DNA of 47,099 bases from a bacterium (lineage in GTDB: Bacteria; Patescibacteriota; UBA1384; XYA2-FULL-43-10; JAKAMI01), in the NCBI GenBank assembly GCA_021812945.1, contig JAKAMI010000004.1, positions 1 through 47,099 of the forward strand, written 5' to 3'. Shown here one piece after another: positions 8,113-34,177 of the stretch (positions are counted from its first letter, which is position 1; each line of letters opens with the position of its first letter). The translations under genes were made by a program, and so were the position numbers. The notes beneath the pieces were generated by a model that was not told the origin of the DNA, ran no database searches, and saw only the letters and a program-made list of their open reading frames with translations.

Positions 8113-9900
8113 TCAACTTTTGTTTATGGTCACACTCGTCTCGGCAGAGTTGCCGGCGGCGTCATAAGCCTTGGCTTTCAGAGTATAGCTGCCGTTGGGA
8201 GTACCGTGACTCTGCCAGGTCCGAGAAATGGAGCTTGAGTTCTCGGTAGCCACCAAGGTGTTGTTAATATAAAACTCCATTTTTACCACCCCGACATTGT
8301 CACTGCCGATAGCAGTGATGTTCAGGTTGCCGCTGTCCCAACTGTAAGGACTGGTCGAAGGCGAAGCGATCTGAACCGTCGGGATCTCAGTGTCACCGCC
8401 TGTCTGATTGCCTATAATAATAGTGATCTCTTTGGTAGTGGTGTTGAGACCGTCGCTGGCGACTACTTTGAGCTGGTGATTTCCGTTGGGATAACTTAAG
8501 GTGTTTATGGCGACCGCAAAGGGGGCGATCGTTTTGGTATCCAGAAGAGCGCTATCAAGATAAAAATTGGCGTTGTCAACCTTTACATCGTCCGTGATAT
8601 CGGCACTGAAATTGATTGTGCCGCTAACGGTTTGCCCGTTGGTCGGCGAGGTTATATTCACCGCCGGCGGAGTCGAATCGACGGCCTGGTTGTTTATCGA
8701 AATATTCTCGGCGGCATCTTGGCAATTGTTGCTTTGGTCGCAGGCTGTCGCTTTCAAACTGTAAGCGCCGTTTTGCTTGCTTTTAGAATTGAAACTAAGT
8801 TGCCAGAAATCTCCGGACTTGGCAGCGAGTCCAAGTGAGTCGCTGTTCAAAAAGTATTCGACTTTGGAAACCGCCACGTTGTCGGTAGCGGCGGCCGCCA
8901 AGCTGATCGTACCAGTTAGCACGGCATTGGCCGCCGGACTCAGGATCGAGATGGTTGGGGCGACGGTATCGGAAGCTCCGCTAGCCCGACCGAAACTCAA
9001 AAACCAATTGCGAGTCCCGGGGTCGGAAGGGTAGCCGTAAGTAGCGGCCATCTGCTGATTTTTGAACGGGGAAAAAAGATATTTGTAATCTTCGGCCACA
9101 ATTTCCGCATCGCAATTGGCCCAGCCTTTGGAGTAATCAGGCGCGGTAGTAGTCATGGAGAGCGGGCGGGCTTGGTAGTAACTATCGGGAAATCTGGCGC
9201 TATATGGGATCTGATAGGTCAGCCATTTATTATAAAGAGAAAAATGGTGACCGTATTCGTGAGCCAGAGTCATCTCCAGATACTCTAAAATGTAGGGCGA
9301 GCTGGCATAATAGTAAACATTTAAATCGATGTAGGCATAAACTGAAGTGATGCGGGTACCATCGGTAGAATAGGCTCCGTTGTACATCCCGCTCCAGCCG
9401 GAGGCGCCGGCATCGACGAAGCGGATTTCGTGGAGCGAGGGCAACTCTTGTTTGGTCCAGAGAAGCGAGGTCGCCATATAACTTTTGAGCGAGTTGATCA
9501 AATAACCGTATTTGCCGGTGGTATCGATCACGTTCAGGTCATAAGGAGTACCGGCGGTTGGGGTTTGGCTGGCGAAACCGTTGAGTTTGCTGACAGTCTC
9601 GGAGCCGATCGATCCCTCGGAGACTATGGTGGTTTTGCCGACGGTTTTAGTCGAAAGGTCGGTATTTTGATGAACTGGAGGATTTTTATCAAGGGCGTTT
9701 AAGGCGTCTTTGGAGACGTCAACATTTCCAGCAGTTGTGTTTCCCGAATGGTTTAGAGTTACCGAAATCTGCTTGTTCCGTGGGACCAAATAGCTAAAAA
9801 TAAGATAACCACAGAAAGCCAAAAACAAGACCAGGAAAATCCCCGGCACAAGGTAATCGTGAAACTTATGAGGTTTTTTAGGGATGAAGTCTGGATCCAT
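8113..9900 (-). CDS. membrane-anchored surface protein: zincin-like metallopeptidase region plus tandem bacterial Ig-like domains
   Basis: N-terminal TM; LAHEYGHHFSLYNKW (HExxH); repeated VTITSPxNGxxVSGTxxxxAxxTDxxxV Ig-like blocks. Confidence 0.75.
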   Translation of the reverse strand: MDPDFIPKKPHKFHDYLVPGIFLVLFLAFCGYLIFSYLVPRNKQISVTLNHSGNTTAGNVDVSKDALNALDKNPPVHQNTDLSTKTVGKTTIVSEGSIGSETVSKLNGFASQTPTAGTPYDLNVIDTTGKYGYLINSLKSYMATSLLWTKQELPSLHEIRFVDAGASGWSGMYNGAYSTDGTRITSVYAYIDLNVYYYASSPYILEYLEMTLAHEYGHHFSLYNKWLTYQIPYSARFPDSYYQARPLSMTTTAPDYSKGWANCDAEIVAEDYKYLFSPFKNQQMAATYGYPSDPGTRNWFLSFGRASGASDTVAPTISILSPAANAVLTGTISLAAAATDNVAVSKVEYFLNSDSLGLAAKSGDFWQLSFNSKSKQNGAYSLKATACDQSNNCQDAAENISINNQAVDSTPPAVNITSPTNGQTVSGTINFSADITDDVKVDNANFYLDSALLDTKTIAPFAVAINTLSYPNGNHQLKVVASDGLNTTTKEITIIIGNQTGGDTEIPTVQIASPSTSPYSWDSGNLNITAIGSDNVGVVKMEFYINNTLVATENSSSISRTWQSHGTPNGSYTLKAKAYDAAGNSAETSVTINKS

Positions 9901-33214: not shown

Positions 33215-33242
33215 AGTTTAACAATAATTTGAGACTTGTCAA
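33215..33242 (-). promoter_or_regulatory. sigma70-type promoter TTGACA-16-TAAACT
   Basis: -35 at 33237-33242, -10 at 33215-33220 (minus). Confidence 0.6.
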
Positions 33243-33274
33243 AAAGGGATATTTTTAGTATTGTCGTAGTGTCG

Positions 33275-33339
33275 TTCCCGAGTAGCCCCGATGTTTCGAT
33301 CGGGATCCCGACAAGCAAAGCTTCGTCGGGACTCAATGG
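33275..33339 (+). pseudogene. truncated duplicate of tRNA-Asn 5' end split by a ~45-bp palindromic repeat
   Basis: TTCCCGAGTAGC (33275-33286) and CTCAATGG (33332-33339) together match TTCCCGAGTAGCTCAATGG of the real tRNA. Confidence 0.6.
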
Positions 33340-33354
33340 GATCAAAAATGTTAT

Positions 33355-33658
33355 TCCCGAGTAGCTCAATGGCAGAGCAAACGGCTGTAGACCTATTGCA
33401 GCTCTTACAGGAAACTGTAAGATGAACTTTTTGGGATAACGGTGAAGGCTAAATTTTGTGTCATTCCCGCGAAGGCGGGAATCCACTCAACATGCTAATA
33501 CCGTGGGAACCCCGAGGAATCGGGGAGCGCCGTAGAGACTAGATACCAAAACACCTAAAATCGAAAGATCATGGTGAAGATATAGTCCACGCCATTATGA
33601 AAATAGTGGATAAAGTGTAACCGTTAGGTTGTCGGTTCGAGTCCGACCTCGGGAGCCA
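33355..33658 (+). tRNA. tRNA-Asn(GUU), exons 33355-33388 and 33618-33658
   Basis: TCCCGAG/CTCGGGA acceptor, AACGG-CTGT|TAA-CCGTT anticodon arm, GTCGG-TTCGAGT-CCGAC T arm, CCA encoded. Confidence 0.92.
33389..33617 (+). ncRNA. group I intron between anticodon positions 35 and 36
   Basis: P1 GGCTGT/GCAGCT with U.G at the splice site; P7 strands AGACTAGAT and AAGATATAGTCC; P9-like CCATTAT-gaaa-ATAGTGG; terminal G. Confidence 0.9.
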
Positions 33659-33662
33659 TAAT

Positions 33663-33690
33663 AAAATGATCACCTTTGAGTGGTCATTTT
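33663..33690 (+). terminator. intrinsic terminator after tRNA-Asn
   Basis: AAAATGATCAC ctttga GTGGTCATTTT. Confidence 0.8.
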
Positions 33691-33754: not shown

Positions 33755-34177
33755 ATGGATGAGCACAAAATTCGTATCTCGGCCAAGTGTTTTTGTTTCG
33801 ACAGCCAAGGCAAGGTTTTGCTAGTCAAAAGCAACCAAGGTGATTTCTGGTCTACCCCGGGCGGGGGAGTCGAGGAAAATGAAAGCTTGACCGCGGCGGC
33901 AAAAAGAGAGGTCATGGAGGAAACCGGCTACACCGTTAAGGTTGATCGGTTTGTCTTTATTCAAGATTATCAGACTAAGACATATAAAATACGCAATATA
34001 GAAGTCTTCTTTGTCGGCAAGATCGATGAGTCAATACCCCAGGCCACCGAGTACGACCACGAGTTTCGGTTTTTCACCGAAGAAGAATTCCTTAAATTGG
34101 TTTTTCGGCCGGAGGGAGTAAACCCGTTCAAACTGAGAGAAGTGGAAGGGGTGGAGTATGGCACATACCTTCGGTAA
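33755..34177 (+). CDS. NUDIX hydrolase
   Basis: GGGVEENESLTAAAKREVMEETGY Nudix box. Confidence 0.93.
   Translation: MDEHKIRISAKCFCFDSQGKVLLVKSNQGDFWSTPGGGVEENESLTAAAKREVMEETGYTVKVDRFVFIQDYQTKTYKIRNIEVFFVGKIDESIPQATEYDHEFRFFTEEEFLKLVFRPEGVNPFKLREVEGVEYGTYLR

Follow-up and report, generated by a model that had tools for sequence, protein, structure and literature searches.

A group I intron between the second and third anticodon positions of a patescibacterial tRNA-Asn gene, with a REP-like repeat in its L5 loop

Which tRNA is encoded at positions 33355-33658 of contig JAKAMI010000004.1 (assembly GCA_021812945.1, Patescibacteriota), and what interrupts it within its anticodon? The window, i.e. 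the whole stretch of DNA analysed, comprises 47,099 nucleotides. Our analysis points, with a probability of roughly 0.94, to a tRNA-Asn(GUU) gene in which a group I ribozyme of a mobile family separates U35 from U36; this ribozyme would splice, would have spread by homing and would have lost its endonuclease in this copy. This reading is drawn from a match to the Rfam group I model, the intron boundary proposed by ARAGORN, a covarying core, the failure to detect a second tRNA-Asn, the mutual exclusion of intact and interrupted genes, an empty and a filled site in one genus, a family of introns at the same site, HNH reading frames in its long members and the well-supported set in which the window intron falls. 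It rests on sequence, structure, boundaries, covariation and the family at the site, together with the failure to find an intact copy.

Joined, the two exons (Table 1) form a 75-nt tRNA-Asn(GUU) with a full cloverleaf and an encoded CCA (TCCCGAGTAGCTCAATGGCAGAGCAAACGGCTGTTAACCGTTAGGTTGTCGGTTCGAGTCCGACCTCGGGAGCCA), which ARAGORN calls tRNA-Asn(gtt). When introns are allowed, the program independently proposes the same 229-nt intron, with the junction gctgt|taacc; when they are disallowed, it misses the tRNA-Asn gene at 33355-33658. The first-pass annotation, made from the sequence alone, had proposed this tRNA once 33389-33617 is removed and had placed the insertion between positions 35 and 36. 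The cloverleaf and the ARAGORN call agree with the former, while the ARAGORN boundary, the pairing of the intron guide and the empty/filled site comparison described below agree with the latter. The host gene is thus supported as tRNA-Asn(GUU), read from its sequence, with the intron splitting the anticodon as GU|U.

The covariance search that the first-pass annotation had proposed returned RF00028 at 33379-33609 (+ strand; 51.9 bits, E 2e-10; gathering cut-off 50 bits) and no alternative Rfam family overlapping the intron, which is confirmed as a group I intron at the level of its sequence. The elements named in that annotation were all recovered: the P1 pairing with U.G at the splice site, the GAAA-capped hairpin CTTACAG/CTGTAAG (P2), the two P7 strands, the P9-like GAAA hairpin and the terminal G. 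Helices P2 to P9 were drawn on the window sequence and counted over the 18 rows of an alignment made from the closest introns (Table 1). P3, P4, P7 and P8 are paired in 18/18 rows and show compensatory changes (four covarying pairs in P3, three in P8 and one each in P4 and P7). Overall, 90.7% of 784 cells are paired, against 74.3% in shuffled and 33.7-46.9% in slid controls, a count biased in favour of the structure, since one of the aligned sequences had served to draw it. The covariation score, which is less exposed to this bias, is 0.510 for the named structure against 0.185 for shuffled and at most 0.140 for slid controls. The unconstrained fold of the precursor includes P1, P2, P4, P7, P9 and the tRNA arms (z = -5.7 against shuffles). 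The intron is short and has GAAA loops on P2 and P9, as do introns of subgroup IC3 (the cyanobacterial tRNA-Leu type, characterised by particular P5/P9 and tertiary contacts), of which it is at most a candidate member.

Table 1. Coordinates (window numbering) of the interrupted tRNA-Asn gene, its intron and the adjacent hairpin
Feature	Position	Strand	Basis
5' exon of tRNA-Asn(GUU), through anticodon positions 34-35 (GU)	33355..33388	+	sequence; cloverleaf and boundary of the intron from ARAGORN
Group I intron, 229 nt, without homing-endonuclease open reading frame; last base G (omega-G, G33617)	33389..33617	+	RF00028; ARAGORN boundary; empty/filled site G024 vs G054
P1: 5' exon GGCTGT (33383-33388) with guide GCAGCT (33398-33403); U35.G at splice site	33383..33403	+	sequence; homologues
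P2 hairpin, GAAA loop	33403..33422	+	90.9% of cells paired; all 8 pairs changed on both sides somewhere
P3: 33429-33434 with 33546-33551, pseudoknotted with P7	33429..33551	+	100% of cells paired; 4/6 pairs covary
P4: 33439-33443 with 33500-33504	33439..33504	+	100% paired; A-U/U-A swap in 4/18
P5: 33447-33449 with 33494-33496, enlarged loop L5	33447..33496	+	85.2% paired
REP-like palindrome TGTCATTCCCGCGAAGGCGGGAATCCACT within L5	33459..33487	+	42 genomic matches
P6a hairpin CCCCGA-GGAA-TCGGGG	33510..33525	+	70.3% paired in homologues, length variable
P7: 33537-33541 with 33583-33587; by analogy the helix that binds guanosine	33537..33587	+	100% paired; in G004 T-A is replaced by C-G (compensatory)
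P8: 33552-33555 with 33573-33576	33552..33576	+	100% paired; 3/4 pairs covary
P9 hairpin CCATTAT-gaaa-ATAGTGG, GAAA loop	33592..33609	+	82.5% paired; 5/7 pairs covary
3' exon of tRNA-Asn, U36 onward, with encoded CCA	33618..33658	+	sequence; ARAGORN
Terminator-like hairpin 3' of tRNA (AAAATGATCAC/GTGGTCATTTT, then GTTATT)	33663..33690	+	by eye only

The exact register requires attention, because, with GTG at the end of the intron and CTGT at that of the 5' exon, splicing two bases upstream (CT|GT...G|TGTAA) would also leave a seven-base loop, with the anticodon UGU of tRNA-Thr. A pattern scan of named genomes yielded at least 114 similar stretches, from which at least 107 introns (at least 105 distinct) could be parsed at the 35/36 site, and among the matches listed ARAGORN prefers this threonine register for 71 of 114 pattern-found stretches. 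The homologues contradict it. In 107/107 parsed introns the guide, which was sought as GCAG and found in every one, faces U35 with a G and U33 with an A, placing the U.G pair of the splice site at U35 rather than U33. Among the tRNA bodies, 106/107 have U1-A72 and 105/105 readable ones G73, features that mark tRNA-Asn, as in the known E. coli tRNA-Asn. An intact gene in G024, a congener of the intron-bearing G054, reads CTGTTAA. On the guide position, the tRNA bodies and this intronless gene, the threonine register, which we consider scarcely credible, was rejected and the asparagine anticodon retained.

The tRNA bodies of G024 and G054 are identical and the site is empty in the former and filled in the latter, which fixes the intron boundaries and shows gain or loss within a single genus. 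The first-pass annotation had described an insertion inside the Asn anticodon as less familiar; site 35/36 of tRNA-Asn is commonly occupied in Patescibacteria. Most of the parsed introns listed come from Patescibacteria; six have hosts in Omnitrophota, two in cyanobacteria and one in Myxococcota. Inspected by eye, the sequence on either side of the cyanobacterial and Myxococcota loci appears native. The window intron falls within a set of 17 introns with 99% support (FastTree, local support only), in a tree built with automatic core starts that were mis-set for L130, L165 and L182; the alignment used corrected cores.

Among the introns listed, 31 are at least 450 nt long; a motif search finds an HNH-type reading frame in 16 of these and a fragment in 11, and no such frame in those below 300 nt. 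A Pfam HNH domain was confirmed in two of three frames tested. In the examples read, the frame sits in the P1 loop, after the splice site and before the guide. A same-order relative (G004) has an HNH-bearing form of the window's intron (L239); no homing-endonuclease reading frame was found in the window copy, and we infer from these sequences that its endonuclease was lost. An uncultured cyanobacterium (L209) carries an 898-nt tRNA-Asn intron, at a locus where a 224-aa frame resembles by eye a LAGLIDADG homing endonuclease (LTPLGIALWYLDDGS) and not the HNH type of other members. In another genome (G055) two tRNA-Asn genes are interrupted (C8/L024 and C24/L087), one by a long HNH-bearing intron and the other by a short one.

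Is the interrupted gene the one that reads asparagine codons? Besides this gene, 43 tRNA genes were found in the genome (912 kb in 42 contigs, 96% complete), and not one is for Asn. An uninterrupted tRNA-Asn elsewhere, which the first-pass annotation had named (with this copy unspliced) as an argument against its reading, was looked for and not found in this 96%-complete genome. In the class, 39 near-complete genomes were compared: the pattern of an intact tRNA-Asn occurs in 16 and that of an interrupted one in 12, while no genome has both (Fisher p 0.0004). Several points weigh against our reading. Eleven of these 39 genomes fit neither pattern, and at least one of them, G018 (L039), has an interrupted gene that escaped the pattern, so that the 16/12/0 split falls short of a complete count. 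In the window genome, tRNA-Ile(GAU) and tRNA-Ala(UGC) were also not found, and an intact tRNA-Asn may likewise have escaped the 96%-complete assembly. Lastly, the RF00028 score exceeds its cut-off by only 1.9 bits. This low score, the incompleteness of the genome and the additional repeat inside the ribozyme would all suit a dead tRNA copy, in which splicing has been abolished, for example by the L5 repeat, while an unassembled intact gene reads asparagine. However, neither the tRNA body nor the ribozyme core has an obvious lesion, L5 is peripheral, the predicted fold retains the core helices with the repeat as a separate hairpin, and no genome searched holds both forms together. We therefore regard a dead copy as very improbable and favour a functional interrupted gene.

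The repeat in L5 distinguishes the window copy. This palindrome recurs at 42 sites of the genome with at most two mismatches, often as inverted pairs, while the reversed control gives 0. It is not in L5 of the same-order relative G004/L239. Like repetitive extragenic palindromic (REP) elements with RAYT/Y1 transposases, it is a short dispersed palindrome frequently found in inverted pairs, and the genome includes five Y1_Tnp genes. By contrast, a copy lies near only one of the four Y1 loci examined, and the link between repeat and Y1 protein is putative. The intron of G034 has a different dispersed palindrome in its P8 region, with 18 sites in that genome. These two cases suggest that REP-type elements entered the intron family at least twice. 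A REP-like hairpin in the P1 loop of the G021 intron was considered as a third case and rejected, as it is not dispersed in the G021 genome. No report of such a REP insertion was found in the literature searched.

The following scheme may be proposed. After transcription the intron would fold and P1 would align the 5' splice site through U35.G. An external guanosine bound in P7 would attack this site, the freed 3'-OH of U35 would then attack after the terminal G, and joining of the exons would produce the loop CUGUUAA. The intron would descend from a mobile family inserted at exactly the 35/36 site and disseminated by HNH homing endonucleases whose reading frames lie in the P1 loop; the window copy, which has received the REP repeat in L5, would have lost the endonuclease. 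A broader picture is more tentative, and we would put it slightly short of even: a single homing family of HNH-carrying introns would occupy tRNA-Asn 35/36 across Patescibacteria, Omnitrophota, Cyanobacteria and Myxococcota, and REP palindromes would independently find shelter in peripheral loops of these ribozymes, which would be essential (L5 in the window copy, the P8 region in G034).

Splicing of the window copy, if it occurs, would make the one asparagine tRNA detected in this genome dependent on a ribozyme, as would be the case in many Patescibacteria. The interruption also explains why a tRNA finder misses tRNA-Asn or reports tRNA-Thr, with the result that such genomes can look incomplete. 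The empty and filled sites in one genus, and long endonuclease-bearing introns beside short ones devoid of it, make homing into a tRNA amenable to study, while the repeat within L5 constitutes a natural test of the tolerance of group I ribozymes.

Around the gene, the hairpin downstream of the tRNA was not reported by a terminator scan. Upstream, a GC-rich palindromic stretch occupies 33270-33330, of which the first 17 bases (33270-33286) are 88% like the start of tRNA-Asn; the upstream 127 bases (33230-33356) have no other occurrence in the genome. The downstream gene (33755-34177) has a Nudix box read by eye (GGGVEENESLTAAAKREVMEETGY). Two further tRNA genes are atypical. One (L045:570-644, minus strand) is tRNA-like, with an anticodon stem TAGCC/GGCTA around four bases only, and receives no assignment from ARAGORN. 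The other (L063:121-195, minus strand) is a 75-nt tRNA called Ser(aga), too short for Ser, with an anticodon loop of apparently nine bases (CTCAGAAAA). The 23S gene of the genome (L006:7059-12094) includes two further group I introns (8362-8587 and 9232-9438, minus strand; 61.1 and 69.1 bits); for 16S, no match was found in the stretch of this genome searched. In relatives of the same order, tRNA-Ile carries group I introns.

Compared with known systems, the intron is of a known kind, present at the same site in at least a hundred further genomes, and what is unusual in the window copy is the REP repeat inside the ribozyme. The cyanobacterial tRNA-Leu(UAA) intron lies between positions 34 and 35, unlike the present one in tRNA-Asn at 35/36. 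Earlier-known tRNA introns share with the window copy a guide paired to the anticodon stem and GAAA-capped P2 and P9. An archaeal-type bulge-helix-bulge intron, short and usually at 37/38, was rejected in view of a 229-nt ribozyme at 35/36; the bulge-helix-bulge motif itself was not searched. The earlier-known bacterial tRNA group I introns (PMC8450103, PMC4033280) are likewise small ribozymes in the anticodon loop but in other isotypes and at other positions, 37/38 being the usual site according to a 2014 review (PMC4033280). The 16S/23S rRNA group I introns of the candidate phyla radiation (CPR; Tsurumaki et al. 2024, PMC11270868) have a similar host and also carry homing endonucleases; they occupy rRNA sites, and that paper makes no mention of tRNA. 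Newly circularised genomes, most of them CPR, are mentioned as having group I introns in tRNAs (PMC8172020). The Patescibacteria tRNA group I introns of Nakagawa, Amikura, Omae and Suzuki (bioRxiv 2025, 10.1101/2025.07.03.662931) are cited in PMC12641178 for a novel tRNA insertion site: going by that citing article, host and kind of element are alike and the site is probably the same.
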